A DNA stretch of 64,000 bases from Stentor roeselii. Lineage: Eukaryota > Ciliophora > Heterotrichea > Heterotrichida > Stentoridae. The DNA is taken from positions 62,001 through 126,000 of the forward strand of contig RSEH01000128.1 of the NCBI GenBank assembly GCA_006503475.1, read 5' to 3'. Below the pieces are notes generated by a model. It saw only the letters and a list, made by a program, of their open reading frames with translations. It searched no databases and was not told the DNA's origin. The first letter of the stretch is position 1, and each line of letters begins with the position of its first letter. Made by a program: the position numbers and the translations under genes. Positions 3,000 to 64,000 of the stretch are shown here, piece by piece.

Positions 3000-3029
3000 T
3001 TGTGTAAATTTTCATGGGGGGCATAATTG

Positions 3030-5750
3030 ATGGAACAGCCTCAGATACAAACAAGTCTTCAGCTGTCACTTGATGAGAAACTGCAGAATTTGATTAGTCA
3101 GGCAGAGACTTATGCGAAACATCTTTTTTTGATGAATAAACTGGAAGGTCCTGCCGGGTACCAGAAGCGTCGTCGAATTAATCAAGAGGAATATGAGAGC
3201 AGCTCTTATTCTTTGATGATTAGGCAGCCTTCTATATTGATTGGAAGTCTTCGTACTTATCAGTTGGATGGTGTGAACTGGCTGATTTCTTTGTTTAGAG
3301 CTGGGATCAACGGCATCCTTGCGGATGAGATGGGATTGGGAAAGACTATACAAACTATCGCGTTTTTGTCGTTTTTGTATGAAGTTGAAGAGATTCAAGG
3401 ACCCCACCTTGTTGTCGTACCTAAGTCCACTCTGGGTAACTGGGTAAAGGAATTCGAGTCCTGGTGCCCCATCATAAAAACCTTAAAACTCGTCGCCGCA
3501 AAGCCTTTCCGCGAAGAAATCATTCAAAACAGCCTTGTCCCAGGTCAATTCGACGTTTGCATCACCAGCTATGAAGGAATCACTCTCTGTTACTCATCTC
3601 TTCGAAAGTTCAACTGGAATTTCCTAATAATCGACGAAGCCCAGAAGATAAAAAACGACGAATCAAACCTTTCCCTTCTAATTCGAAAGCTTTCCAGTAA
3701 AAACCGATTGCTGATAACAGGAACTCCTCTTCAAAACAACCTTCATGAACTTTGGAGCCTTCTGAACTTTTTATTACCAAAGATCTTCAGTTCAAGTTCC
3801 GACTTCGACGAGTGGTTTAGACTAGGAGCTGAGGAAGGTCTAAGCGAAAGTGAAATTGAGAAGAAAAACGTGAGAATGGTTCAATTGTTGCATAAAGTCC
3901 TGAAACCTTTCATTCTAAGAAGGACTAAATCCGAGGTGGAAACCGCGATTCCTCCAAAGAAAGAAATTTTAGTGACTATTAAAATGACTCCTTTGCAAAA
4001 AGACTTGTATCGCAAGATACTCTGCAATGAATTATATAAAAAGGACAGCAAATGTCATTATTTAAATGTTGTCATGCAACTTAGGAAAGTTTGTAATCAT
4101 CCTTATTTGTTCCCTGGGGTTGAAGATGAGAAAGCTCCGGACTTGGCTGAACATCTTATCACGAATTCAGGGAAAATGAAGATTATTGATCAGCTTTTGC
4201 CTAAATTGAAGGAATCTAGGTCTCAGGTCTTGATTTTCACTCAGATGACTATGATGCTGGATATTTTAGAGGATTATTGCAACTTTAGAGGATTTTCTTA
4301 TTGTCGGTTGGATGGAATGACTGATATTTATGAAAGGGAAAAAATGATTGCTTTGTTTACTGAACCTCAGTCTAGTTATTTCATTTTTTTGCTTAGTACT
4401 CGTGCTGGCGGACTTGGAATTAACTTGGCTTCGGCTGATACTGTTATTATTTATGATAGTGATTGGAATCCTCAGGTTGATTTGCAGGCTATGGATAGGG
4501 CACATCGGATTGGACAGTCTAAGCAGGTTAATGTTTATCGACTAGTAACAAGAGACAGCCTAGAAGAAAGAATAATCGAAAGACAATGTCTAAGGTTAAA
4601 ACTCGACTCTCTAATAATCCAAACCGGGCGTTTAGTCCCAGGCCACAAATCCTTAAACAAAGAAGAACTTCAAGAAATGCTTCATTTCGGCGCAGACCAA
4701 ATTTTCAGTACCCAAAACGACGACACAGAAGTAAACGAAGAAGACCTGGAACTAATGCTTCACCGAGGTGAGCAGAAAATAAAAAAAATCAACGAAGAAC
4801 TAGAGATCCAGCTTGCAAAGCGTCGAAATCTCATCGAATTTGAAAGCAAAATCGACATGTGGAACTTCGAAAGCATCGACTACTCAAAAAAACGAAAAGA
4901 AGACTCAAAAGACGTTCTCAACAAAATCGTTCAAGAAAGACTCTCCAATGATCCTGATGAAAGACGTGATAAAAAAAATCTAGTTGTTTATAACGTCGAG
5001 AGTAAAAACTTGAAGGTTAAAGAATTTAAGCCTGCTGCTGATTTTAAATTTTTTCAGTCAAGGGAAAGACTTTTAATCCTTCAGGAAAAAGAATTTCGGA
5101 AGGAAATTTTAGATGATGAAAAAGAAGAACTTGAAAAATTAATGCGCACTGGATTTGATTGGAAAAAAAAGGAATATTGGGCGTTTGTTAAAGGATGTGA
5201 AATGTATGGAAAACATGCTTTTTCGCTTATTTCGGAAATGGTTGGAAGTAAAAATGAAGAGGAGGTCAGGGCTTACTCTGAAGTCTTTTGGAATAGGCTG
5301 CATGAACTTGCTGATAAGGAAAAAATTGTAAAAAATATTGAAAAGAGGGAAAGTTTATTGGAAAAATATAAAAATACTCAGAGTCTTGTTGATAATAAAT
5401 TTTTGACTTATAAGGATCCTTGGAGAGAACTCAATTTTGACTCGAGTATTTCTCATAAGTCAAAGGTTTTCACGCAGGAGAATGATAGGCACTTGCTTTG
5501 CTATGTTAAATTAGTTGGGTATGGAAATTGGGAAGCCCTCCGTCAAAGAATCCGAAGAAGTGAATTTTTTAAGTTAGACTACATGATCCGATCACGTACA
5601 TCAAACGAGCTGCAACGAAGAGTCGATTTTTTAGTCAAGCAGTTAGAAAAAGAATCAGAAGAAAAAATATTCGACCTAGGAAAGCGAAAAAAGGAACCCG
5701 ACGACGACCCAAAGCTTGAAAAACTAATGAAGATAGACCAGGTAGATTAA
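3030..5750 (+). CDS. ISWI: ISWI-family chromatin remodelling ATPase
   Basis: This 906-residue protein is an SNF2-family nucleosome-sliding motor. The order of parts is classic ISWI: helicase lobe 1 with Walker A DEMGLGKT (about 99-106) and DEAQ in place of DEAH at about 203; lobe 2 with LSTRAGGLGINL and QAMDRAHRIGQ; then HAND, SANT (about 709-757, WKKKEYWAFVKGCEMYGKHA) and SLIDE (about 792-875, GYGNWEALRQRIR). The start is the ATG at 3030; the TTG just before it is not needed. It converges on RCL1 with 7 bp between the stop codons. Codon choice switches abruptly several times along the gene (see findings), and its last 0.7 kb has a decayed copy at 56042-56730. Confidence 0.97.
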   Translation: MEQPQIQTSLQLSLDEKLQNLISQAETYAKHLFLMNKLEGPAGYQKRRRINQEEYESSSYSLMIRQPSILIGSLRTYQLDGVNWLISLFRAGINGILADEMGLGKTIQTIAFLSFLYEVEEIQGPHLVVVPKSTLGNWVKEFESWCPIIKTLKLVAAKPFREEIIQNSLVPGQFDVCITSYEGITLCYSSLRKFNWNFLIIDEAQKIKNDESNLSLLIRKLSSKNRLLITGTPLQNNLHELWSLLNFLLPKIFSSSSDFDEWFRLGAEEGLSESEIEKKNVRMVQLLHKVLKPFILRRTKSEVETAIPPKKEILVTIKMTPLQKDLYRKILCNELYKKDSKCHYLNVVMQLRKVCNHPYLFPGVEDEKAPDLAEHLITNSGKMKIIDQLLPKLKESRSQVLIFTQMTMMLDILEDYCNFRGFSYCRLDGMTDIYEREKMIALFTEPQSSYFIFLLSTRAGGLGINLASADTVIIYDSDWNPQVDLQAMDRAHRIGQSKQVNVYRLVTRDSLEERIIERQCLRLKLDSLIIQTGRLVPGHKSLNKEELQEMLHFGADQIFSTQNDDTEVNEEDLELMLHRGEQKIKKINEELEIQLAKRRNLIEFESKIDMWNFESIDYSKKRKEDSKDVLNKIVQERLSNDPDERRDKKNLVVYNVESKNLKVKEFKPAADFKFFQSRERLLILQEKEFRKEILDDEKEELEKLMRTGFDWKKKEYWAFVKGCEMYGKHAFSLISEMVGSKNEEEVRAYSEVFWNRLHELADKEKIVKNIEKRESLLEKYKNTQSLVDNKFLTYKDPWRELNFDSSISHKSKVFTQENDRHLLCYVKLVGYGNWEALRQRIRRSEFFKLDYMIRSRTSNELQRRVDFLVKQLEKESEEKIFDLGKRKKEPDDDPKLEKLMKIDQVD

Positions 5751-5757
5751 TTTATAA

Positions 5758-6885
5758 CTAAAACGCCACACGGGCCATATTTTCATAGTCGATTCCAAGA
5801 CAACTCAAAATCGTACTTTTAGGCAAATCCTCAGGAATCTCTCCCTCATCATCATCATCATCATTCCTCTGATAAACCGGGTTATCAACATCAGAAAACC
5901 TGAATTTTACATTGAAAACATCAAAAATCATCCTCAATACTTCAACACTCGTGATTGAGACCCTTCCAAAGCGAATCTTCGACTCTTCTCCACCCAAAGC
6001 CATGAGAATCAATGCGAGGGGTTGACTTGGAGTGTCGAGGCACCCTCCGTACCACACCTCGTCTAACAAGTGAAGGACTGCCAAGTTGGCTAAGTCTTCT
6101 GGGACGTCACTTTCTAGGTGCTCTAAATGACTTGCTTCGCTTGATAGAAACTCGCTTGTCAAATAACAACCTGTGTTCGTTTCTGCTACTAAAGTTATTC
6201 CTAAGGATGCTTCACCGTGCTTGGTGTGGTCTGTGTGGATCCAGATGTCTGGTAGGAAACTGTGGAGCAGACCTTTCGCTGCGTAGGCTGCACGGTTTCC
6301 CATTTGGACGTTCATTCTGCTTGTGAATGCGAGACCTCTTACTTTTTTCACCTTTCCTGGCTCAGTGATTGATATTTTCTGAACCTTACGAATAGGACTA
6401 AGACTGAGGATCACTTCACAATCAAGTCCTCTACCTGTTACTTTGATGTTAATATCTTCAACGCCAAAACTCTTCAATAAGGGTATTTGAGAATAAATAA
6501 TTGAGTCTACCCCAACATCATTAGGTGAATGACTAGCACCTTTCATCGTGAGTTTCAGTTTGTTTTTTCCAAAAATGACGAAAGGTAAAATCCCTTCTAA
6601 ATAAAAGCCAATACTACGAGACTGATGACATTCAAACGTTATGCCGACATGTCCTGGATTATTGATGATGACTCCAGGCACGAAATTAACCTGAGTTCCA
6701 GATTCGCTGATATCAACAACAGTGCCAGCAGTTAATTGACTAACAAGCTGCAAGTAGTTGACTTCAGCATCAGTAAGTCCAGGGTATTCACTACTACTCC
6801 TGACTTTCGAGATTTTGACAGGTCGTCCACTGATCAAAGAAGCGATGATCCTAAACCTGAAAATCTTGGCACCCTGGAGTTCCAT
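5758..6885 (-). CDS. RCL1: RNA 3'-terminal phosphate cyclase-like protein (18S rRNA processing)
   Basis: This 375-residue protein matches RCL1, the non-cyclase RTC-fold protein of the small-subunit processome that works with Bms1 in pre-18S rRNA processing in the nucleolus. Visible signatures are SLISGRPVKI near the N-terminus, IRKVQKISITEPGKVKKVRG in the middle, PDIWIHTDHTKHG, LGITLVAETNTGCYLTSE and CLDTPSQPLALILMALG. An acidic insert of five Asp lies near the C-terminus. I start at the ATG at 6885 (MELQGAK); the in-frame GTG at 6897 is unlikely. It is divergent from RPA2 with only 17 bp between start codons. Part of its 3' half is duplicated as a decayed copy at 56738-57515. Confidence 0.93.
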   Translation of the reverse strand: MELQGAKIFRFRIIASLISGRPVKISKVRSSSEYPGLTDAEVNYLQLVSQLTAGTVVDISESGTQVNFVPGVIINNPGHVGITFECHQSRSIGFYLEGILPFVIFGKNKLKLTMKGASHSPNDVGVDSIIYSQIPLLKSFGVEDINIKVTGRGLDCEVILSLSPIRKVQKISITEPGKVKKVRGLAFTSRMNVQMGNRAAYAAKGLLHSFLPDIWIHTDHTKHGEASLGITLVAETNTGCYLTSEFLSSEASHLEHLESDVPEDLANLAVLHLLDEVWYGGCLDTPSQPLALILMALGGEESKIRFGRVSITSVEVLRMIFDVFNVKFRFSDVDNPVYQRNDDDDDEGEIPEDLPKSTILSCLGIDYENMARVAF

Positions 6886-6902
6886 GATTATAAACACGAA
6901 AA
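6886..6902. promoter_or_regulatory. 17-bp shared spacer between divergent RCL1 and RPA2 starts
   Basis: Only 17 AT-rich bases separate the two ATG codons. Promoter elements and 5' leaders of at least one gene must therefore lie within the coding sequence of the other, or the two transcripts overlap. Confidence 0.6.
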
Positions 6903-9337: not shown

Positions 9338-9427
9338 AATATTTGAAAAAATTTCTAGGATAGGAAATTTTTGCTTCTGGATATTGTTGCCAGATATTTA
9401 ACAGAAAGGTTTCTATAATAATTCAAA

Positions 9428-10003
9428 ATGTTCTTAGTCAATTGGTTTAAGTCTGCTTTAGGCTACCTCGGGCTTCATCAAAAAAACGCGAAGCTAGTCT
9501 TTTTAGGACTTGACAATGCAGGAAAGTCGACTTTACTGCACATGCTAAAAGACGACAGAATGACTCAGCTTGTTTCAACGACTCATCCTCAATCAGAAGA
9601 ACTAGTGATGGGAAGCATCAGGTTCAGAACCTTTGACCTGGGAGGTCACGAAATAGCAAGAAAGATCTGGAGAGACTACCTGGGCCAAGTCGACGCAATC
9701 ATTTTTGTTGTAGACGCAGCTGATCGGGAAAGGTTTCACATCGCAAGAAATGAACTTCACGAGCTTTTAGAGTCAGAAGAACTGCAAACTACCCCTTTTT
9801 TGGTTCTAGGAAATAAAATCGACCTTTCAGACGCTTCGAGTGAAGATGAACTGAGAAGTGAACTAGGACTTGACACTTATGCTGTTAATACTCAGGGAAA
9901 AGTCGAACCTGGATCGAGACCTGTCGGGCTTTTTATGTGCTCTGTTGCGAAACGGTCTGGATATGCTGACGGGTTTAAGTGGATTAGTCAGTACTTAAAT
10001 TAG
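9428..10003 (+). CDS. SAR1: small COPII GTPase SAR1
   Basis: This 191-residue protein is SAR1, the Arf-family GTPase that starts COPII coat assembly at ER exit sites. It has the amphipathic N-terminal segment (MFLVNWFKSALGYLG), the P-loop GLDNAGKST (27-35), switch II DLGGHE, the guanine motif NKID, and the C-terminal FMCSVAKRSGYADGFKWISQ that is typical of SAR1. There is no Gly2 for myristoylation, which fits SAR1 and not Arf. Length equals the family norm. Confidence 0.96.
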   Translation: MFLVNWFKSALGYLGLHQKNAKLVFLGLDNAGKSTLLHMLKDDRMTQLVSTTHPQSEELVMGSIRFRTFDLGGHEIARKIWRDYLGQVDAIIFVVDAADRERFHIARNELHELLESEELQTTPFLVLGNKIDLSDASSEDELRSELGLDTYAVNTQGKVEPGSRPVGLFMCSVAKRSGYADGFKWISQYLN

Positions 10004-10211
10004 AGATTATTATATACGTGGAAGATGGGGAATGAGTTTCGGTTAATTGGTGAATTTGGGAATTATTGGTGAGTTTGAATTGGGTTTATTGTTTTTAGAG
10101 GTATGTTGGAGTTGAGTTTTTAGAGGATTGGTTGGAGTTTAGTGTTTTTAGATGATATGTTGGAGGGTAGAGATTTGGGTTATCATAATGATCAAACAGA
10201 GTTATAGATAT

Positions 10212-45424: not shown

Positions 45425-45835
45425 AAAACTAGTTTAATCATTTTTTTTCTATCAAAATCCTTTTTTAACACCCAAAAACAAGTCTTTGTTCCTAACACCC
45501 AATTCTCTTTCGATATAATTAAATGGAAAAACTATTTTAATCATTTTTTTCTATCAAAATCCTTTTTTAACACCCGAAAACAAGTCTTTCTTACTAACAC
45601 CCAAATTCCCTTTCGATATAATTAAATTTTAAAACTAGTTTAATCATTTTTTTCTATCAAAATCCTTTTTTAACACCCAAAAACAAGTCTTTCTTCCTAA
45701 CACCCTAATTCTCTTTCGATATAATTAAATGGAAAAACTAGTTTAACCACTTATTTCTATCAAAATCCTTTTTTAACACCCAAAAACAAGTCTTTCTTCC
45801 TAACACCCAAATTCCCTTTCGATATAATTAAATGG
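45425..45835. repeat. tandem repeat, 102-103 bp x 4, with telomere-like octamers
   Basis: Four head-to-tail copies of about 103 bp fill the whole spacer. The anchor CTATCAAAATCC occurs at 45449, 45551, 45654 and 45757. Each unit holds two TAACACCC-type stretches, a TTTCGATATAATTAAATGG end, and most hold AACTAGTT. The last unit ends at the ATGG of the next gene, so that gene's promoter region and start codon are themselves one repeat unit. Copy 3 contains CCTAACACCCTAA (45696-45708), which matches the Stentor telomere repeat CCCTAACA as I remember it. Confidence 0.92.
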
Positions 45836-47289
45836 AAAAAGTTAAATATTTTCAAAGAAACTCCCTTCTCAGAGTCGACACTTTCAGTGAATCAGTTTCA
45901 AGTCAACACAGCCGAAGCAGTGTCCAGTACCTAAAAATCCAAAAACTTGCAGAAGAAGCGAATGAAATAAAAAAAAAACGAATAGCTGAAGAAAACAAGC
46001 GAAATCGAATCAAACTAGCCTTGGAACTTCATCAACAGATGTACAATGAACTTGAACTGGCAGCTGTTTGTATTCAAAAACATGTTCGAATGTTTCTGGC
46101 AAAGAAAATTGTCAGGAAAATCATGGCTCAAAAGCTTGAATATGAAAAAAACTTGATTTTACTACAGAAAAATATTGGAGAAATTTGGATGCAGGACTTT
46201 TGTGTTAAGCATATCGCTGCTTTTCGAATTCAGAGGTTTTGGAAAGGCTTTCGAAAGTACCCTCCTAAGATAGACCTCGTCAAAAGACTTGTTAAGACAT
46301 TCTTAGAAAATAAAAATTTTAAAAAAGTTCAACTTTTGAAAAATTTTCAAAGAAAAACAGCTGAAAAACTTGGGTGTTTAAATAGAAAATTTTTGGATAA
46401 GATACAAGGAATTGCTTTTTTTAACTGGAAAAATTTTCAGGTTTTTGAGTCAAGTGAAAGTTTTGAATCGCCTGATCCGAACGTGGAAGAAACAGTTGAA
46501 ACCTTAAAATCCTCTAAAATCACTGAAAACCCTTTAAAACCCGAAGAAAATCCATTAAAACCCGAAGAAAACCCTTCAAAACCCGAAGAAAAACCATTAA
46601 AACCCGAAGAAAAACCATTAAAACCCGAAGAAATCCAAAAAATTCCCATATCAGAAAAACCAAAACTATTAAAACCAGAAATCCTCCAAAAGTTTCCCCA
46701 AATCCCAGAATACCCAAAACCTAAAAACTTCATCTTAAGCGAAGCAAATTTTCACAGGGCTACTTTCGCATCAAAAGGTAAAAGATTCGACACTCCAGAA
46801 GAAGTCCAACCCACAAAAAAATCCAAAAAGTTGAAAACCTTAAAAACCCGAAGACTTTTAAAGCAAACCACTTCTCGTCTTGTCTACATTCACGAAAAAA
46901 ACCAAGAAAACCAAAAACGCGAGCAATCAGCAAGACCCCGAATGACCTCTGAAGTAAAATTTCGAGTTCCAGCAATTCCCCAGTTATCTTCAATTCCAAG
47001 TAAAATAAGAGAATCTCTTTTAAAGCGAGCTCAAAGAAGCACATCATTCAGCGTCGAGCGAAAAGAGTCTTTCCGAAAAGACGAGGAAAAATCAGAAGAC
47101 CAAGAAAAAAGTTCAGAAAAACGAGAAAAACAAGAAAAACAAGAAAAAACTCAAAACAACCTCCCAACGTTAAACTTTCAACAAGCCCTACCCGACCTTT
47201 TCGGTTTCCTTGAAAACTACGGCCCGAACCTCCGTAAAAATCCAGTCATTCAAAGCACTACAGGTCTTATAGTGCATCGTTTAAAATAG
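45832..47289 (+). CDS. IQ-motif protein with a KPEE repeat
   Basis: The 485-residue protein has a coiled-coil N-terminal part and two IQ motifs (AVCIQKHVRMFLAKK near 83 and AFRIQRFWKGFRK near 130), so it probably binds calmodulin or centrin. Residues about 233-267 are five near-perfect copies of a 7-residue KPEE(N/K)PL unit. The C-terminal part is rich in K and E. It is a likely cytoskeletal protein of the cortex or basal body, where centrin is abundant in ciliates (inference). The start codon lies inside the last copy of the upstream 103-bp repeat. Confidence 0.75.
   Translation: MEKVKYFQRNSLLRVDTFSESVSSQHSRSSVQYLKIQKLAEEANEIKKKRIAEENKRNRIKLALELHQQMYNELELAAVCIQKHVRMFLAKKIVRKIMAQKLEYEKNLILLQKNIGEIWMQDFCVKHIAAFRIQRFWKGFRKYPPKIDLVKRLVKTFLENKNFKKVQLLKNFQRKTAEKLGCLNRKFLDKIQGIAFFNWKNFQVFESSESFESPDPNVEETVETLKSSKITENPLKPEENPLKPEENPSKPEEKPLKPEEKPLKPEEIQKIPISEKPKLLKPEILQKFPQIPEYPKPKNFILSEANFHRATFASKGKRFDTPEEVQPTKKSKKLKTLKTRRLLKQTTSRLVYIHEKNQENQKREQSARPRMTSEVKFRVPAIPQLSSIPSKIRESLLKRAQRSTSFSVERKESFRKDEEKSEDQEKSSEKREKQEKQEKTQNNLPTLNFQQALPDLFGFLENYGPNLRKNPVIQSTTGLIVHRLK
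46529..46633 (+). repeat. in-frame 21-bp coding repeat, about 5 copies
   Basis: The units read roughly CCATTAAAACCCGAAGAAAA with small changes and encode KPEE(N/K)PL. They are so alike at DNA level that recent expansion or contraction by slippage is likely. Confidence 0.85.
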
Positions 47290-52326: not shown

Positions 52327-52889
52327 TCTTTATTAATTTTGATGAGTATAATTAAGTCAAGATAAGGGTTGATAATTTAGTGTAAATCAATAGAATTTTC
52401 GTATGTTTTAAATATATATTATAGAGTTATAGGATTAAATTAATATGATTTAATACTATTGATTAATTGTAAAAGAGTCTTATTAAGTAAAAGCTAAGTC
52501 TTTATTATATAGTTGATTTTAATAGACTTTTGATGAGTTAAGTAAATATAAAATAGTTATAGAATTAAAATTCTATGGATTATATCATTTAGTGTTTGTA
52601 AAGCGTGAATAAAATCAATGATTATGTAATTTTAGAAAATTGTTTTTAAAATTCTATTACATTTTCGATATGTAACCATTAAGTTGTTTATTTCATTAAT
52701 ATTATGTTGAACTGACTATTAAATACAAATTACTGTTTATATTAAACAATTTAATTATTATCCACAAAATAATCAAAAGCCCTAGCACTATTTAAAATTA
52801 ATTCTATAAATAGTTTAATCTCTCTATTCTCAATAATTTTTTATTCTAGTTAGATTTTCATTTGAAATAAATGAAAAAACTTGCTATTA
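52327..52889. other. AT-rich spacer, no gene seen
   Basis: The spacer is unusually long for this window and very AT-rich. No RNA gene or repeat was found. It may contain decayed sequence upstream of the pseudogene, but no homology to the flanks of the intact kinases was visible. Confidence 0.45.
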
Positions 52890-53327
52890 TTTTTGGATTT
52901 CATATGGGCATCAAACCTGAAAATATTCTGATCGGAAGTGATGGCTATGTGAAAATAATTGACTTCAAAAGTTCAAATTTTAAGTTTAAAGGAGATAATT
53001 TCCTAAGAATTTACATGTGGGGAGTCAAGGATATAACAGTCCAGAAAAGCGAGATGTTATTTTAAATCAGTGCATGCCAGTCAAGTTATGACCCTGAAAA
53101 ATCTGATATTTTCTCCTTAGGTCTTATCTTATATCAGATAATTACTTTAACTGCGCCGATTATCTATCTGGTTGTCTTAGAATTAGAAAATGAAATTAAT
53201 CATATTTAGCATACAGATTAAAGTATAAAATATCTCGTCAATAGCATGTTGATGAAAAATCCTCTTGAACAGTTTAATTATGAAAGAACTTTCGTTGTTA
53301 TTGAAGATATTGTTAAAAAATCAATAA
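52890..53327 (+). pseudogene. broken protein-kinase copy (C-terminal lobe only)
   Basis: This stretch aligns by eye with the last third of the kinase at 53874-55520, from its catalytic loop (HMGIKPENILIGSDGYVKII) through SYDPEKSDIFSLGLILYQII to the end. There are in-frame stops (for example TAA after SEMLF at 53063 and TAG near 53208) and frame changes, and the activation segment is shortened. The catalytic Asp is Gly here. It keeps KPEN where the intact neighbour has KPDS, so the neighbour's change is the newer one. The N-terminal two thirds of the gene are missing. Confidence 0.85.
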
Positions 53328-53786: not shown

Positions 53787-53864
53787 ATTGTCTATGTTTA
53801 TTGTCTCTGTTTATTGTCTATATTAATTGTCTATATTAATTGTCTATATTTATTGTCTATATTT
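53787..53864. repeat. 13-bp tandem repeat x 6 (ATTGTCTATATTT-type)
   Basis: Six copies of a 13-bp unit, ATTGTCTATATTT with variants, end 9 bp before the kinase ATG. The unit has no stop in one frame, which makes the open frame run back through it. It occupies the likely promoter or leader of the kinase gene. Confidence 0.85.
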
Positions 53865-53873
53865 ATAAATAAA

Positions 53874-55520
53874 ATGAATGAAATTGGGAGACTTGCTGCG
53901 CAATTCCAACAAGTTTTGATGCAAAGACATTATGAGATCACAAATCTGGATACAAAAGAATCCCTTTGCTGGGATTATACAAATTATGATCCTGATTTCC
54001 AGAAATTTTGGATTTCATCTATTCTCTTTCATCAAGAAGCCCAAAGATTCGGGCCACTTATTTTACCCTCAAATCAGCTACTCTTAGCAGTCTTTAAACT
54101 ATCAATAGAAAACATTCAAAATTTAGGTTCATTCGAGGATTCCGTCCAATTCCATAGATCAATCGATTCGATCTTAACCAAAGAGTTGAATGATTGTCAT
54201 ACTATCGACGACCTTCAAAGACTCCTCGATACACTTAGTTCATATTCTCACAGTAACCAAATAGATTACAAATATTTCCCTCTTGCCATTCAGAAGATAT
54301 CAACTATAACATTAAACTTTTTGATGAATCCTTCAAAAACAGTTGAAAGTCTCCAAAACTTTGTAATGAGTTACTTGAATTTAAGATTCATTCAATATCT
54401 CAATGAGTTGACTTGGACTGTAATTTTCATAGTTTGTGAATTTATCGAAACTGAGATTTTTAATAAAAGATATTATCAAATTGCCTCGAAATGTCAACTC
54501 CTTCTTTTTGCATTAGATGATGTTTGCATTAATCAATACCAGAAGACTCATGTTAAGTCATTAATAGATAAAATCAAACCGATTATTCAAAGAATTTTAC
54601 CTGGTAATGACGATCGTGATCCATTAAATGATATTAGGGCAAGTTTAGACTTAAAGCTAGTTTCAAATCGAGTAAAAATGTTTGTTAATAAAATTTCAAA
54701 TTTTAGTAGAATCCAAATTGATAAAGCTAGGTTCAATAACCAAACAATTACTCTAAAAATTTACGAAATTCACTCAAAAAGACAACAAGATTTAGAAAAA
54801 ATTTATCTAGAAGTTAGAACCTATAAAAAGCTCAGTGACTTAAATAAAAACCATTTTCTAAAATTTTACGGGTCTTCAGTAAACACCGATAAAACCCAAA
54901 ACCCAGAAGAATCTAAGACAACAGTCATTCTGGCTCTCGAATACTGTGAAAAGTCCTTTGCAAATATAATTGAAAGAAACATCATCAATCAAATAAACTT
55001 CACCGTCGAAGATATTTTAAAATATGCTTACCAATTAATTTCTGGATTAAAAACAATGAGAGACTCGGGAATTATTCATATGGACATCAAACCTGATAGT
55101 ATTTTGATCGGAAGTGATGGCTATGTGAAAATAATTGATTTTCAATATTCATATTTTAAAGTCAGTGGAGTTACTTTTACTGGGGTACAAGTGAATTTAC
55201 CTGTTGGGACTCGAGGCTATTCCAGTCCAGAAAGGCTAGAAGTTATTTTAAATCAAGGAATCGGTGCTTCTCAGTCAACTTATGACCCTGAAAAGTCTGA
55301 TATTTTCTCCCTAGGTCTCATCCTATATCAAATTATTACTTTAACTGCACCGATTATGTATCAGCATGTCTCAGAATTGCAACACGATATCAATAGATCT
55401 GTTCATATTAATGATTGGATAAAATATCTAGTCAATACAATGTTGATGAACAATCCTCTTGAACGGTTTAATTACGAAAGGGCCTTTGATGCTATTGATT
55501 GGATTGTGAAAAATCAATAA
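53874..55520 (+). CDS. divergent protein kinase 1, possible pseudokinase
   Basis: The start at 53874 gives 548 residues. Residues 1-265 are helical and not recognised. The C-terminal kinase domain (about 270-545) has a Lys in TLKIYEI and the Glu-bearing helix C region, but no glycine-rich loop that I can see. The catalytic loop is HMDIKPDSIL (Asp404 kept, Asn changed to Ser) and DFG is DFQ. VGTRGYSSPERL and SDIFSLGLILYQI follow. Loss of the Asn and the Gly suggests weak or absent catalysis. It has a paralog at 58179 and a broken copy at 52890. Confidence 0.85.
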   Translation: MNEIGRLAAQFQQVLMQRHYEITNLDTKESLCWDYTNYDPDFQKFWISSILFHQEAQRFGPLILPSNQLLLAVFKLSIENIQNLGSFEDSVQFHRSIDSILTKELNDCHTIDDLQRLLDTLSSYSHSNQIDYKYFPLAIQKISTITLNFLMNPSKTVESLQNFVMSYLNLRFIQYLNELTWTVIFIVCEFIETEIFNKRYYQIASKCQLLLFALDDVCINQYQKTHVKSLIDKIKPIIQRILPGNDDRDPLNDIRASLDLKLVSNRVKMFVNKISNFSRIQIDKARFNNQTITLKIYEIHSKRQQDLEKIYLEVRTYKKLSDLNKNHFLKFYGSSVNTDKTQNPEESKTTVILALEYCEKSFANIIERNIINQINFTVEDILKYAYQLISGLKTMRDSGIIHMDIKPDSILIGSDGYVKIIDFQYSYFKVSGVTFTGVQVNLPVGTRGYSSPERLEVILNQGIGASQSTYDPEKSDIFSLGLILYQIITLTAPIMYQHVSELQHDINRSVHINDWIKYLVNTMLMNNPLERFNYERAFDAIDWIVKNQ

Positions 55521-56041
55521 TAGATGGTTAGTTATTCTTAATTTAGCATAGTTTAGTTAAGCGGGTTTGATAAATATCTATGATTTTTTTTCAATTTAGC
55601 TTGAAAATTATAGGCTTAATGTTTTGATTATTGAAACTTAGCTTTCGTGAGATAATTACAGATTTTAATTATGTTATCTAATGATAAATGAATTAAATAT
55701 AATGATAGTCTTAGTAACTATTTATTTAATCAAGGCTTAGGTTTTACTTGATCAATAATATAATACTTTATGTAGATAGTTTATATATCAAATATCCCTA
55801 ATAAACTTTAGTTTTAATTATAAAATCTTTAGATTTTTAGAATCACAAAAAAATGCATGAAAATTTAGAAGTTTGAATAGAATTTCCCAATTCAGAAAGA
55901 TTTTTTAGGGATGATGTATTAAATGCAATGTATCGATAATTTTTAGAGGGTTATGAATTTGTGCTATTATTAATGCAGTTTAATCACTTTGGCTACAAAA
56001 TTAACAATTTATAGGAATAAATTTCCTTGTACTTTTTGCTT
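55521..56041. other. AT-rich spacer, no gene seen
   Basis: After about 120 bp that match the pseudogene's 3' flank there is unrelated AT-rich sequence with no gene, ending where the decayed ISWI copy begins. Confidence 0.5.
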
Positions 56042-56730
56042 CTGATTTAAAATTTTTTATTCAAGGGATAGACTTTTAATGTTCCAGGAAAAAGAGTTTA
56101 GCGAGGAAATATCTATTATCCAAAAAAAGACTTGAAAATTGATGCGCACTGGATTTGATTGGAAAAAAATGAATACTAGACCTTGTTAAAGATGCGAAAT
56201 TGATGGAAAACATGATTTGAGCTGATTTTGGAAATTTTTGGAAGCAAAAATGAAGATGAAGAAGGACTTACTCTGATATCTTTTGGAATAGGATGCATGA
56301 ACTCTCTTATAAGGAAAAATATTGAATAGAGGGAAGTTTGTAGATAATATAAAATATACTTAGAGTCTTATTGATAATAAATATAAGTATCCTTTAAAAC
56401 TCAAATTTGACTCGAGTATTTCTCACAAAATTAAAATTTTCACGAAGGAAAATGACATGTGTCTCATTTGCTATGATAAATTAGTTGCATATCAGCCACC
56501 CTTGTGTCTATATCATAATTCCTTACTAAAGAATCCAAAGAAGTAAATTTTTTAAAGTTGGACTACATGATTCGATCCTTAATTTCAAACAAACTCCAAC
56601 GAAGAGTTAATTTTTTAGTCAAGCAGTTAGAAAAGAGTCAGAAAAAAAATATTTGACTTAGCAAAGCGAAAAAAAAAAGCCGATTAATATTCAAAGCTAA
56701 AAAATAAAGAAGATAGACCAGTTTAATTAA
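56042..56730 (+). pseudogene. decayed ectopic copy of the ISWI 3' end
   Basis: This aligns by eye with 5037-5750, the part of ISWI that encodes the region from HAND to the C-terminus. Stretches such as ATGCGCACTGGATTTGATTG and CTCGAGTATTTCTCA are unchanged, and many short indels, substitutions and stops lie between them. The copy lacks the ATPase lobes and cannot encode a remodeller. The order and distance to the RCL1 part are kept, so it is a DNA-level duplicate and not a processed one. Confidence 0.93.
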
Positions 56731-56737
56731 TTTATTA

Positions 56738-57515
56738 CTAAGCCGGCCATATTCTCATATTCAATTCCAACTAAAAAGCGTACTCTTGAAAATCATCAGC
56801 AACCTCTCCATCATTTTAATCTTCATTCCTCATATAACGAATTTTTACATTAGAAAACCTAAATTTTACTTGAAAACTTCGAATATCATCCTTACAACTT
56901 CGACACTCGTGATCGAAACCCTTCAAAGTGAATTCTTTACTCTTCTCCAGCTAAGGCGATGAGAATTAATGCGAGAAACTGACGTGTCCAGAAACCGTTC
57001 TTACCACACCCGTCTTACAAGTGAAGGACTATCAGGTTGGGTAAGACTTCTGAGACGTCGCTTTCAGATGACTTGCTTCGTTTTATAGAAACTGGTTGTC
57101 GAAAAGAAACTTTTATTTGTTTCTGTAGTAAATTTTTTCCTAAATATGCTTTCCTGTGCTTTAGGTGGTCTGTGTGGATTCAGATGTATAGCAGAAAACT
57201 TTAAAGAAGACCTAACGCTGCGAAAGCTGCATGGTTTCACATTTGCATATTCATAGTGTTGTGAATGCGATAACTCTTACTTTTCACCTTACCTTGCTGT
57301 GTGATTGATATTTTCTTAACCTTATGAATAGGACTAAGAATGAGAATCACTTCACAATCCAATCCTCGGCTCTAACTTTGATGTTAATATTTTTAAAGCC
57401 AAAACTTTTAAATAAAGGTATTTCTTACTAAATTATTGAGTCTACCCCAATATGATTAGGTGAATAACTATCACCTTTCATAGTGAATTTCAATTTTTTT
57501 TTTCCAAATGACATT
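56738..57515 (-). pseudogene. decayed ectopic copy of the RCL1 3' part
   Basis: This aligns with 5758-6577, the C-terminal two thirds of RCL1, in the same convergent orientation to the ISWI copy as at the source. Recognisable shared stretches include ACAAGTGAAGGACT, GTGTGATTGATATTTTCT (with small changes) and GAGTCTACCCCAA. Indels and stops break the frame many times. The right-hand boundary is close to 57515, where similarity fades into the flank of the second kinase. Confidence 0.92.
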
Positions 57516-57547
57516 ATGTAATTCTTTCTGAAATATTAATTAAATTC

Positions 57548-58045
57548 ACCATTAAAAAGCTTTAAAGGTTCATTGAATAAACTAAGAAATTTACATATAA
57601 GCGGATATGTACTAATTATAGAAACTTTAATTATTTATTAAACATACCGATAATTTAACCTTATTAAATTTAGATTATGCCTGGATTTGAATTTTAATCA
57701 ATCATAAAAAAAATTAACTGCAAAACAATCATCAGAATAATATAATGCAGGGAAAGGTCAACTTTGATTAATTCTTACTGATAGTGCTTGAAACTTCTGG
57801 GTGGTTCTAAATTTGTATCAAGATGGAAGAAATTTGTTCTGAAATTCAAGATGGTTCTAGAAGCGTATCAGATTGATGAAATTTCTTATAATATCCTAAG
57901 GTAAATCAAAAAAAAGTATTTTCAATAAATTTTAGATAAAGCACAAAAATAATAGTTAAACTGGATGATTTAGCATCAAAAATTTCAATATTCTTTAAGA
58001 AAATTCAATTATATATACTGAAAGTAGTTTGGCTTTATCATTCAG
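57548..58045. repeat. flank unit P, copy 1 (upstream of kinase 2)
   Basis: This AT-rich non-coding unit lies directly 5' of kinase 2 and is similar throughout to 60312-60795. Matching landmarks are ATCAGAATAATATAATGCAGG against ATCAGAATAATGCAGG, CTAGAAGCGTATC against CTAAAAGCGTATC, and ATTTCAATATTCTTTAAG against ATTTCAATATCCTAAAAG. Its position suggests promoter DNA. Confidence 0.8.
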
Positions 58046-58178
58046 CGGGATCAATTAACTTACCCTAAACTAATAATTAAAGAAGCTTAAAAGAAATTTC
58101 AAAGATTTAACCAAAATTATATAATTAGAATTATTATATTACTTTTGATTCAGATAAAGTATATTGTCTACAATAAAT

Positions 58179-59834
58179 ATGGCCGATATAGAAAGACTTA
58201 TCTCACAATTTGAACGGGAAGCATGCCGAAAAAGAATGGAAACAATGGAAGACCTTTGCGATGAATATTGTGATTGTGACCAGGCTACAAGAAAGTTATG
58301 GGTAGCATCATTTCTCAAGTGCCAAGAAGAAAGGATCTATGGGAGTCTTTTATCAGAGAATAATGCAGCACTCTTATATTTCTTCGAAAAATTAATAGAG
58401 AGCTTGAATGTATTAGATATCTCTGAAAATTCTTCAATCATTCACAATTCAATCGACTTAATCTTAACCAGAGAACTGACAGATATGAACTCTTTAGAAA
58501 AGATTAAAACTCTTCTATCTTTAATAAATGCATATGATAGAAGCGATCAGATATACTATCAATACATCCCACTAGCCATAAACAGAATCTCAGAATTAAC
58601 CTTAGAAATTTTGATGAATCCTAACAAAACAATTGAAGATATCCAAAAATTTCTGGTAATTTACTTGCAGTTAGTGGTATTAATAGATCTTTCTGAATTA
58701 AGTTGGAGTGTCATCTTCAACATTTGTGAATTTATACGAAAAGAACTTATAATCAATAACAAAAGAGATATCGCCTCAGAATGTTTTTTTGTCCTTTATA
58801 CAATTAGAGAATTCTGTGAAAATCAGAATGAGATTTCTGAAATCAATTCAATGATTTGTAGAATTGAACAACTCTTCCAAATCAGGGCAACTAATGCAAT
58901 CTCTCCTGCAGTACCCCCAGATATACCCCCAGATCTTAAACGATTGAACTTAGACCAAATAACAAACAGTCATACAATTTACATTAACCAAAGGTCAGAA
59001 TTCATAACAGTCCAAGTTGATCGAGTATTCATTAATAATTCGAATATGATTCTAAAGATTTATGAAATTCCAGTATCTAAAAGACAAGATTTAGAAAGAA
59101 TTTACAAAGAAGCTAGAGTCTATCAAAAAATGAGTTCTTCTAATAGCAAATATTTTCTCAAATATTATGGCATTCATTCAGCACGAACTAAAAAATTTGA
59201 AACAGATACAAGCATGATTAAATTAACCCTCGGTATTGAAAACTGTAGCAAATCTCTAGAAAATCTAATCAAAAGAAATATTACTGAGAAAATAGTCTTC
59301 ACCACCCAAGAGATTGCTAAAATCGCATACGAGTTGATTTCTGGACTTCTGACTATGAGAAATTTGGGTGTTATTCATCAAGACATAAAACCTGAAAATA
59401 TAATGATTGGAGATGATGATTGCATGAAAATTATTGACTTTGATGTTTCATATGTGAAAATTAGTGGAGTTACTTTCACAGGGAAAATGATTTCTTTAGT
59501 AGTAGGAACTCAAGGCTACTATAGCCCTGAAAAACTTAAGTGCCATCTTAACAGAAATCGTAATGCGACTCAGATTAGCTATGACCCTGAATATTCTGAT
59601 ATTTTTTCTTTAGGTTTGATCTTATATCAGATGATAACTTTAACAGAAAATATCTTATACCAGAATGCTTCAGATTTGCATAATCATATTGATCAATTCT
59701 TAGAAATAGATCAAAATATCAGAGCACTTGTCAAAACGATGCTAGCTCAAAATCCTAATGATCGGGTAAATTTTGCAACGGCTTTGACAATGGTTCCTTA
59801 TAAAGAGAATAATGGAACATCGGCGATTCCTTAG
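58179..59834 (+). CDS. divergent protein kinase 2 (DFD motif)
   Basis: The start at 58179 (MADIERLI) gives 551 residues, the same layout as kinase 1: an unrecognised helical half followed by a kinase domain. Here the catalytic loop is intact (HQDIKPEN, Asp402), the Lys in ILKIYEI is present, and DFG reads DFD (420-422). VGTQGYYSPEKL and SDIFSLGLILYQMI match kinase 1. It is therefore more likely to be active than kinase 1. The proline-rich PPDIPPDLKR linker separates the halves. Codons are strongly A/T-ending. Confidence 0.87.
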   Translation: MADIERLISQFEREACRKRMETMEDLCDEYCDCDQATRKLWVASFLKCQEERIYGSLLSENNAALLYFFEKLIESLNVLDISENSSIIHNSIDLILTRELTDMNSLEKIKTLLSLINAYDRSDQIYYQYIPLAINRISELTLEILMNPNKTIEDIQKFLVIYLQLVVLIDLSELSWSVIFNICEFIRKELIINNKRDIASECFFVLYTIREFCENQNEISEINSMICRIEQLFQIRATNAISPAVPPDIPPDLKRLNLDQITNSHTIYINQRSEFITVQVDRVFINNSNMILKIYEIPVSKRQDLERIYKEARVYQKMSSSNSKYFLKYYGIHSARTKKFETDTSMIKLTLGIENCSKSLENLIKRNITEKIVFTTQEIAKIAYELISGLLTMRNLGVIHQDIKPENIMIGDDDCMKIIDFDVSYVKISGVTFTGKMISLVVGTQGYYSPEKLKCHLNRNRNATQISYDPEYSDIFSLGLILYQMITLTENILYQNASDLHNHIDQFLEIDQNIRALVKTMLAQNPNDRVNFATALTMVPYKENNGTSAIP

Positions 59835-60795: not shown

Positions 60796-61116
60796 ACCGA
60801 ATATCATATAAGAAGAAAGCTACTTTAATTAGAGTTTTTTTGTATTTAAAAATGAAATGGCTTAGTCTAAACATTCTTAACATAATCGATATATTATATA
60901 TAAGTGAATGAGTATACTAAGACTTATTAATGCGATCAATAAGCATTTTTTCAATACTTTTGTTTTTTCTCACCGTGTGAATAAAAAAAAGATACTTTTT
61001 CTTCAGTTTACTTATTCATTCTACATAATTATTTATTTTTCATTATAACTTCGATTTGATTAAGATTAATTATATGCTAAACTTAAATCTTTATAGTAAG
61101 ATAATTTGAGTTTAAT
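60796..61116. other. AT-rich spacer, promoter of the Cys-rich gene
   Basis: No gene seen. It contains a small inverted repeat, CTTATT and AATAAG separated by 9 bases, near 60924, and ends with the start of a secreted-protein gene. Confidence 0.4.
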
Positions 61117-64000
61117 ATGGTGCTTTTTTTATTCCTTATCTCCTTCAGCTTGTCTCTAATCCTTGAGTACCGTTTATGGAAGAACTATGGTCAAGTTCTT
61201 TATGATTACTCTGGAAATGGCAATCACGGATGGAATGGGTGGGGGACTGATACAGATATCAAAGACTGTCTATTCACAGACAGAGGAGCATACTTAAATA
61301 CTGACTGCTGGGTTGATTTCGCTAAAATTCTGTATCCAAATCCAGTTTCATTAGTTTTTTGGGCTCTTTCAGACAGCACCCAATCAACAGGAAATTTAGT
61401 TCTAGGAAGAATATTCAGTAGATGGGATCCTTCAAGAAGTTTCTTAATTTTTCATGATAAACTTAATTTAAGGGCAAGAGTTTACTACCAAGGTGTTAAT
61501 AACTGGCACCAATTATTCAGTTCAAACAATATATGGCAAACTCGTAATAATTACATAGACAAATGGGCTTTGATATCAGGTGAAATTAATCAAAACACAA
61601 TAAAGTTAAAAATCAATGGAAATGATATTATTTTATTTACAGATACTTCAAACTATCAAGAATATTCTCCTGCAATAGTTCATAGAATAGGAAATGACAA
61701 TCCAGGACATACAGGCTTTGGAGGTTTTGTGTGGTATTCAGCAATTTATAATAAAGCAAATGTAGAGAGCAGTTATTTAAGCATAACAAGTACTAATTGC
61801 TTTATTGGAAAATGTTCTACATGTAATCCGAGTTTTATTATACCATCTTTGGGGACTGGGTGTGGACCGGATTCGGTCAGTACTATTGATGACTCTAATG
61901 GAAACAGATGTGATGTGGGGTATGGTTGTAAAGGTTCCATGACTATCAAATGTAATTGTCCTAGCAAGTCTTGTGAGTTTACCTCTACAGATGTTTGCTC
62001 ATGCATTGAATCTACTGGATTATTATATCAAGCAGCATGCAGTTGTGGAATAGGTGGACAAGGTTGCTGTCAAAGTGAATGCTCTTCTTGTTCTATTGAA
62101 AATTATTGTCTGACTTGTAAGGCAAGTTTATCTATTATTGTAAACGGCCAGTGTACATGCCAAGACGGTTACGGCTCCAATCCTTCCACTTCCTCTTTAT
62201 CCTGCCTAAAATGCATCACAGAATGTAAAACCTGCTCAACATACAACACATGCACAAATTGCATCGATAGTTTATCATCCCTTACAAATGGAAAATGTAT
62301 TTGTCTTGAAGGGCACTTCGCATTAATCACTTCTACAAGTTTTACTTGTGAACCTTGCCTTTATGAATGCCAGACCTGTGACAACTCATCTTCCTGTTTA
62401 ACATGTAAAGACTTAAACTCTCTTTTAACATCCGGCAGATGTCTCTGTAAAAACGGTTATTTCAGTATCTATTTAAATCAAGTCCTTCAAAATTGCTTAA
62501 AATGTAACGAAACATGTTCAAAATGTACTCAACTCATTACTTGCACTGAATGCATATCATTAAACTCCTCTCCAATAAACGGAACCTGCACCTGCCACGA
62601 TGAATATTTTCCAAGTTCAACTTTAACTCAACCTGATTCATGTCAACCCTGTTCATTTCCATGTAAAACCTGCAATTCTTCATTTTATTGCTTAAGTTGT
62701 CTAATTAGCAACTATTTAGCAATTGATGGAAAATGTATTTGCCCAGATAAATTTTATGAAGAGTCAAATCTTTGCAAGTCCTGTCTTGACCCATGCGAAA
62801 CCTGCAGTTCTTTAACTTATTGTTCCAGTTGCATTAAAGAAAACTATCAAGCAATAAATGGAAAATGTTACTGTTTACCTGGTTTTTATGAAAATGAAGG
62901 TCTTTGCCGTCAATGTGAATCGCCTTGTAAAACTTGTTTGAATTCTAATTATTGCTTGGAGTGCAGGCCTCTTTATTCTGAAAGTAAAAACGGGACTTGC
63001 TTGTGTAAGGATCAGTATTACAAAAAGAATTTAATGAATTCTAAGGAATTTGTTTGTGAATTGTGTAATACACCTTGTTTCACTTGTTTGTCTTTGAGTA
63101 AGTGTATGACTTGTGATGATGTCTTGAAAAATGTGGATGAATTGGGAAGGTGTAAATGTAAAGATGGGTTTTATTTTGATATTCAAAAATGCTTGCCTTG
63201 TAATGAAACGTGTGCCACTTGTAAGTCTTTAGATAAATGTACTTCTTGCTTTAATAGTAGCTTTGAACTGGTATCGAGTGGAAAATGTTTGAAAAAATGC
63301 CCTGGAAATTTGATCAGGATTAATGAAATTTGTGACTGTAACCCTGGAAAAATCTTAAAAAATGAATCATGTGTAAACCATTACTTCTACTCCTCTCTAA
63401 AAATCAATAAATCAAACAAGATCTACCTTAAATTCGACGACTCTCTAAACACTTCAATAAACTCAGAAGAAATTTCAATAATCCTCCAAAACCGAAATTT
63501 CAAAGATTTCAAATTATTCAAAAAGTCAAGCACTCAAATCATTTTAATCCTAAACCTTCATGAGTCAGTTCAAAAAAACACAAGTATTTCAATAAATCTA
63601 AAAAAACCTCTATTCAGTAAAAATAACGCGATTTTAAAAAACTATGAATTTCATGATTTTCTCTTCGAATTTGAATACATCGACCCCAGCACAAAACTTT
63701 TAATAAAAAATTTTGAAACAACTTCAAAGTCAATGGTAACAGTTTCAATCGGCATTTCAATTATCTCGAACCCAGCAGCTGCCTGGGCAATGATAGGAAC
63801 TTTACAGTTACTACCTTATATTCCTTTAAGCAAGAATTATAATGAAAGTGTCACAAGAACTTTCTTTACTTCAGCAGGAGGTTTTAACTTGTTACCTAAT
63901 TTTCTTGTTTATGTTTTTTCAGAAGACTCTTCAAGTCGCCCTAGTCGAGAAGTCAGGTCAGTGGGAATAAAATCTTCAGTCTTTTGGCTGAATCTCGGTA
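61117..64000 (+). CDS. large cysteine-rich surface protein, 5' part (runs off the window)
   Basis: The frame is open from the ATG at 61117 to the window end, at least 961 codons. It begins with a signal peptide (MVLFLFLISFSLSLI), then a concanavalin/LamG-like domain (about 20-220, YDYSGNGNHG and FVWYSAIYN), then about eight repeats of 50-60 residues with furin-like CxxCxxxCxxC spacing and a recurring NGKCxC start, ending near residue 755. A beta-rich part follows, then a hydrophobic segment at about 873-905 (ISIISNPAAAWAMIGTLQLL). Such proteins are abundant in ciliates and sit on the cell surface. Function is unknown. Confidence 0.88.
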   Translation, partial: MVLFLFLISFSLSLILEYRLWKNYGQVLYDYSGNGNHGWNGWGTDTDIKDCLFTDRGAYLNTDCWVDFAKILYPNPVSLVFWALSDSTQSTGNLVLGRIFSRWDPSRSFLIFHDKLNLRARVYYQGVNNWHQLFSSNNIWQTRNNYIDKWALISGEINQNTIKLKINGNDIILFTDTSNYQEYSPAIVHRIGNDNPGHTGFGGFVWYSAIYNKANVESSYLSITSTNCFIGKCSTCNPSFIIPSLGTGCGPDSVSTIDDSNGNRCDVGYGCKGSMTIKCNCPSKSCEFTSTDVCSCIESTGLLYQAACSCGIGGQGCCQSECSSCSIENYCLTCKASLSIIVNGQCTCQDGYGSNPSTSSLSCLKCITECKTCSTYNTCTNCIDSLSSLTNGKCICLEGHFALITSTSFTCEPCLYECQTCDNSSSCLTCKDLNSLLTSGRCLCKNGYFSIYLNQVLQNCLKCNETCSKCTQLITCTECISLNSSPINGTCTCHDEYFPSSTLTQPDSCQPCSFPCKTCNSSFYCLSCLISNYLAIDGKCICPDKFYEESNLCKSCLDPCETCSSLTYCSSCIKENYQAINGKCYCLPGFYENEGLCRQCESPCKTCLNSNYCLECRPLYSESKNGTCLCKDQYYKKNLMNSKEFVCELCNTPCFTCLSLSKCMTCDDVLKNVDELGRCKCKDGFYFDIQKCLPCNETCATCKSLDKCTSCFNSSFELVSSGKCLKKCPGNLIRINEICDCNPGKILKNESCVNHYFYSSLKINKSNKIYLKFDDSLNTSINSEEISIILQNRNFKDFKLFKKSSTQIILILNLHESVQKNTSISINLKKPLFSKNNAILKNYEFHDFLFEFEYIDPSTKLLIKNFETTSKSMVTVSIGISIISNPAAAWAMIGTLQLLPYIPLSKNYNESVTRTFFTSAGGFNLLPNFLVYVFSEDSSSRPSREVRSVGIKSSVFWLNLG

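Follow-up and report, generated by a model that had tools for sequence, protein, structure and literature searches.

The window is a 64,000-nucleotide stretch of the Stentor roeselii genome, taken from a 133454-base contig (C35:62001-126000) of an assembly that we searched for further copies (44.39 Mb, 522 contigs); positions given without a contig name are those of the window. It contains an ISWI gene and an RCL1-like gene in convergent orientation, whose open frames put their stop codons 7 bases apart (5751-5757), and the parts of both genes that concern us here are uninterrupted single open frames, without introns. Further along, two kinase genes, which we call K1A and K2A, enclose a decayed copy of this junction (copy A), and a truncated kinase-1 remnant adjoins the intact K1A (Table 1). 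Long standard-code open frames occupy the window, consistent with Stentor, and a scan for short introns gave two plausible candidates of 15 nt beside a handful of other lengths; for S. coeruleus, introns of 15-16 nt and the standard code are described (PMC9505925).

Table 1. Source genes, decayed copies and neighbouring features (window positions unless a contig is named)
Feature	Position	Strand	Basis or remark
ISWI	3027-5750	+	Pfam: SNF2-related, Helicase_C and SLIDE domains
RCL1-like gene	5758-6897	-	Pfam: RTC and RTC insert domains
Source stretch (ISWI 3' part, 7-bp gap, RCL1-like 3' part)	5033-6601	.	Alignment, open frames, Pfam
Truncated kinase-1 remnant	52829-53320 (C35:114829-115320)	+	Five in-frame stops: 2 TAG, 3 TAA
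K1A (kinase 1), left neighbour of copy A	53874-55520	+	Pfam; open frame from probable ATG at 53874
Left flank of copy A	55738-56036	.	In this genome only beside copies A, B and C
Copy A, decayed ISWI 3' part	56037-56730	+	Alignment; inner boundary by eye
Copy A, decayed RCL1 3' part	56738-57508	-	Alignment
Right flank of copy A, K2 upstream spacer	57509-58178	.	Most of it homologous to C203
K2A (kinase 2), right neighbour of copy A	58179-59834	+	Pfam; open frame from probable ATG at 58179
Copy B	C35:1945-3370	-	Genome search; match in two pieces
Copy C	C333:1053-1440		Genome search; ISWI tail, junction and RCL1 half missing

A decayed copy of the ISWI/RCL1-like junction

Copy A as a whole (56037-57508) matches source positions 5033-6573 in one continuous plus/plus alignment, with 77.1% identity over 1557 columns and a reported E of 0.0; the score of 1114 bits rules out a chance match, and the divergence from the source (~20%) rules out a recent event. 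The 3' end of ISWI, the intergenic gap and the 3' part of RCL1 follow one another in the convergent order of the source, and weak RCL1 homology may extend slightly past 57508 (copy B reaches source position 6601). Every one of the six reading frames of 56037-57515 contains 30-39 stops, with a maximum open run of 81 codons, and most deletions relative to source 5037-6573 are not multiples of three (28 of 32 in copy A, 18 of 23 in copy B). Copy A thus shows two features of a pseudogene, significant similarity to intact parent genes and disabling frameshifts and stops.

A preliminary description of this DNA had placed a decayed 1.5-kb copy of the junction at 56042-57515, with the ISWI 3' end, the spacer and the RCL1 3' part in convergent order and both halves broken by indels and stops, and had proposed aligning the two intervals. 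The alignment gives the significant match reported above, its limits differ from those proposed by only a few bases, all three parts are present in order, and the damage is as extensive as had been claimed. The copy is thus real; its presentation as a single copy does not stand, as the genome holds two more.

A second ISWI-like gene lies elsewhere in the genome (C460:163143-164199, a 920-aa open frame). It can be rejected as the parent: at 69% over source 4500-5535 it falls below the similarity of the window ISWI, and it has no adjoining RCL1 match among the best candidates scored.

Sister copies and the kinase block

The further copies, here called B and C, lie at the left end of contig C35 and on contig C333, respectively; since the genome searches score the best candidates only, the fragment has at least three copies. 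Copies A and B are in opposite orientation on one contig. At all three loci a kinase-1 gene (K1) precedes the fragment and a kinase-2 gene (K2) follows it, with K1 present only as its 3' part beside copy C, where contig C333 starts inside the gene, and K2 cut by the contig end beside copy B. The spacers on either side of the fragment are also homologous among the three loci, and the copies differ from one another by ~20% (17-24% in the ISWI part common to all three). A lone transposed copy is ruled out by the two sister copies. As the same K1 and K2 neighbours occur at all three, the fragment most likely came in once and was then copied along with the block of kinases.

The left ends of C35, C333 and C203 break inside or just beside kinase genes, marking these regions as repetitive and hard to assemble, and the fragment might accordingly have been joined wrongly to the kinases, or represent a low-copy germline variant assembled beside them. 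We give such an artefact a very slim chance: the three loci, which differ by ~20%, have the same kinds of neighbour, so that the error would be needed three times, together with independent mutations, and on this ground a chimeric assembly join appears very unlikely. Inspection by eye of both ends of C35 and of the left end of C333 revealed no telomere-like repeat.

The left edge of the fragment is nearly identical in the three copies (source 5033-5041), and the right edge lies near source 6573-6601 in the two that retain it (A and B); by eye, nothing clear in the way of target-site duplication or microhomology was found at the edges. The C203 homologue of the right flank sits between two K2 genes, and the genome search reported no ISWI/RCL1 match at that place. 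Similarity between copy B and C203 begins at C35:1937, eight bases from the end of source homology (C35:1945), and that between copy A and C203 begins ~130 bases further in from the fragment edge. The left flank has no fragment-free counterpart in the genome, so that of an empty site the genome shows the right half alone.

The arrangement is like segmental duplication in an expanding (birth-and-death) gene cluster in that the kinase block was duplicated and that intact, truncated and chimeric kinases occur together; it differs in that a decayed fragment of foreign origin travels in the block and marks the order of duplication. The segmental duplications described for Oxytricha (PMC4684698) concern alternative MDS processing.

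Besides K1A and K2A, members of the kinase cluster are found at C35:11-9919, C333:1794-3449 and C203:31-4132. The nine kinase genes compared are open from a probable start, one of them being cut by a contig end, and they evolve fast, with dN/dS values of 0.31-0.91 over whole genes in 16 pairs and, for three K2 pairs, of 1.00-1.29 in the half that carries the kinase domain (a comparison of only 161 codons in two of the three). The K1 proteins seem to be altered at what we take to be the catalytic-loop Asn and the DFG glycine. An apparent chimeric kinase at C333:3644-5506, with a K1-type first half and a K2-type second half, is what unequal exchange would give; one stop is reported in its first half. 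Immediately upstream of the probable K1A start codon, a 13-bp unit is repeated 6.2 times (53787-53866).

Rate of decay and order of events

The preliminary description had suggested dating the copy against synonymous sites, and this comparison places the fragment beside its neighbours in rate. In the homologous block, 262 of 1351 sites differ between copies A and B, a Jukes-Cantor distance of 0.224 (other alignment choices give 280/1361 or, with ragged ends included, 277/1394); for the kinases that flank these two copies, dS is 0.230 in the pair K1A-K1B1 and, over the 439 codons kept in B, 0.217 in the pair K2A-K2B. Identity between A and B is 79.4% in the fragment (1081/1361) vs 81.5% (370/454) and 87.1% (512/588) in the spacers. 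With its divergence close to kinase dS, and no better conserved than its spacers, the fragment has, judged from these comparisons, decayed neutrally since the block was duplicated.

Private substitutions at source codon positions 1, 2 and 3 number 45, 27 and 35 in copy A and 44, 52 and 36 in copy B, and neither set shows a significant codon-position bias (hand-computed chi-square ~4.3 and ~2.8, respectively, 2 df); the deficit at position 2 in copy A speaks against neutrality, and it too is not significant. Changes from G/C to A/T outnumber the reverse in both copies (162 vs 60 in A, 143 vs 63 in B), and the indels of the two gene parts are almost all deletions, 28 against 2 insertions in A and 23 against none in B.

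Six of the deletions relative to source 5037-6573 are exactly shared by A and B (sizes 1, 1, 1, 5, 2 and 3), a number that would be eight if the non-homologous ragged ends were counted, and copy C has two of the six where it can be compared. Because five of these six deletions shift the reading frame, the fragment was frameshifted before the block was duplicated. Sites at which A and B agree against the source number 31, 24 and 59 at codon positions 1, 2 and 3; by half, the counts are 16/18/45 in RCL1 and 15/6/14 in ISWI, the latter with no excess at position 3. The position 3 excess thus stems from the RCL1 half, and synonymous change within the source gene itself is its best explanation.

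If the position 1 and 2 changes common to A and B (55 of 917 sites, 6%) are taken as time before the duplication, and the private changes (107 in A and 132 in B of 1370 sites, ~8-10%) as time after it, about two fifths of the decay predates the block duplication, an estimate that takes no account of source change at those two positions. Among sites lettered in all four sequences, 12 group B with C, 5 group A with C and 2 group A with B, and kinase dS agrees with the B+C grouping (0.131 for K2B-K2C, 0.229 for K2A-K2C).

Mode of copying and possible roles

We consider it about 90% probable that the fragment is an unprocessed pseudogene fragment, copied as DNA and then duplicated as a passenger between K1 and K2, without a function of its own. 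A piece of chromosome of ~1.55 kb across the convergent 3' ends of ISWI and RCL1 would have been copied once into the K1-K2 spacer, presumably through DNA repair or a template switch and presumably in the germline, as a mutual difference of ~20% implies that the copies are inherited. The fragment would then have decayed unconstrained, mainly by G/C-to-A/T changes and small deletions, and later, as the kinase cluster grew, the K1-fragment-K2 block would have been duplicated at least two times, giving the blocks now seen in the window, in inverted orientation at the left end of the same contig, and on C333; functional RNA would not be made from it. The suggestion of the preliminary description that the copy marks a past rearrangement has held up in this form, as a DNA-based, decayed copy that is one of three moving with the kinase block.

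DNA copying is the best reading because the fragment takes in both convergent genes and because its edges, inspected by eye in copies A, B and C, show neither a poly(A) nor a poly(T) tract. It is less certain than had been proposed, since the spacer is only 7 bp long and the source stretch has no introns: the spacer is indeed retained, as the preliminary description stated, and at 7 bp it is weaker evidence against an mRNA-based copy than that description took it to be. An RNA-mediated copy of a read-through transcript across ISWI and RCL1 draws on these same features, with single open frames in the source making the absence of introns unusable as evidence, and an old poly(A) or poly(T) tract could have decayed; it would also need a transcript running ~800 bases into opposing coding sequence, and we rate it very improbable, the least probable of the alternatives considered here. 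The marks of a processed pseudogene are absent, as there is no poly(A) remnant and two convergent genes are represented instead of a single transcript. The DNA-copied fragment resembles unprocessed (duplicated) pseudogenes in being a DNA-level copy with intergenic sequence, frameshifts, stops and neutral-rate divergence, and differs from them in spanning the 3' parts of two convergent genes and in having later multiplied with another gene family. It is an ordinary pseudogene passenger and not a new kind of element.

The fragment had also been proposed as a source of RNA with homology to two essential genes. In such a role, read-through from the kinases into the three decayed copies would give antisense or double-stranded RNA, and small RNAs made from it would tune ISWI and RCL1. 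Paramecium offers a precedent: truncated transgenes there produce siRNAs and silence the intact gene in trans, and it is suggested in that work that pseudogenes could act in the same way (PMC4937312). Small-RNA clusters overlap 117 of 2435 predicted Paramecium pseudogenes in one serotype (PMC6735861), and Paramecium ISWI1 is needed for DNA elimination (PMC9670198), so that regulation of ISWI would matter. The opposite orientation of copies A and B on C35 would also suit such a role. The likeness to these siRNA-producing pseudogenes and transgenes is that of a defective gene copy in a ciliate genome; the difference is that small RNAs occur there (PMC6735861, PMC4937312), whereas the fragment has hardly any long exact match to its source and no sign of constraint.

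Several results make the RNA role very improbable and leave the earlier proposal unsupported: the rate of change in the fragment roughly equals that at synonymous sites in the adjacent kinases and shows no significant bias by codon position, the fragment is not better conserved than its own spacers, copy C lacks the RCL1 half and the junction, and exact runs shared with the source are no more frequent than shuffled alignment columns yield. Within the homologous block, copy A has one exact run of at least 23 bases, the length taken as sufficient for guiding on the parent gene (25 bases; 0.52 expected from shuffles), and copy B none (longest 20; 0.36 expected). Runs of at least 20 bases number three in copy A, where 1.25 are expected and 119 of 1000 column shuffles reach three, and one in copy B, which 593 of 1000 shuffles reach; inclusion of the ragged ends had lowered the expectation for copy A to 0.69, suggesting a mild excess. 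These counts are of perfect identity, and guides with mismatches may act outside such runs. An Rfam search of the whole window at gathering thresholds gave no match to a structured RNA. Even less probable is the wider idea that the dispersed, oppositely oriented copies give low-level small RNA against ISWI and RCL1 and so link expansion of the kinase cluster to the dosage of a remodeller that, in another ciliate, has a part in genome editing. Were small RNAs to arise from the fragment against this evidence, it would exemplify a pseudogene that naturally controls a chromatin remodeller.

As a passenger, the fragment has other uses. It is a datable neutral sequence from which the local neutral rate and the strong small-deletion and AT bias of this genome can be read, and as a marker it helps to place the duplications of the rapidly evolving kinase cluster in order. 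It also shows that a ciliate assembly rich in genes does retain decayed DNA. On C35, 82.6% of the sequence falls within open frames of 100 codons or more, counted from stop to stop; of the stretches outside them, the two longest on the contig, of 2637 and 2507 bases, contain copies A and B, respectively. The preliminary description called such non-functional DNA unexpected in a compact ciliate genome; locally it is unusual, and as a general claim this is overstated, given the 2435 pseudogenes predicted in Paramecium by the authors of PMC6735861.

Further repeats and duplications lie in and around the region. The left ends of C203 and C35 overlap over 1390 bases (C203:1-1390 and C35:1-1390) in opposite orientation and with 93.7% identity, which could reflect alleles, paralogues or adjoining pieces that the assembler separated. 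Cysteine-rich repeat genes adjoining the kinase cluster are duplicated at 73-78% identity (61100-64000 and C35:127577-131636), and C333 contains a large, interrupted inverted duplication in four pieces with 88-90% identity (C333:5575-9071 and C333:10233-17353). Elsewhere in the window, 9418-10008 has a duplicate at C35:33137-33727 (78% identity) with a 191-aa open frame kept in both, and a 103-bp unit is repeated 4.0 times with 92% matches at 45425-45840, between two open frames, the second of which it overlaps by nine bases.
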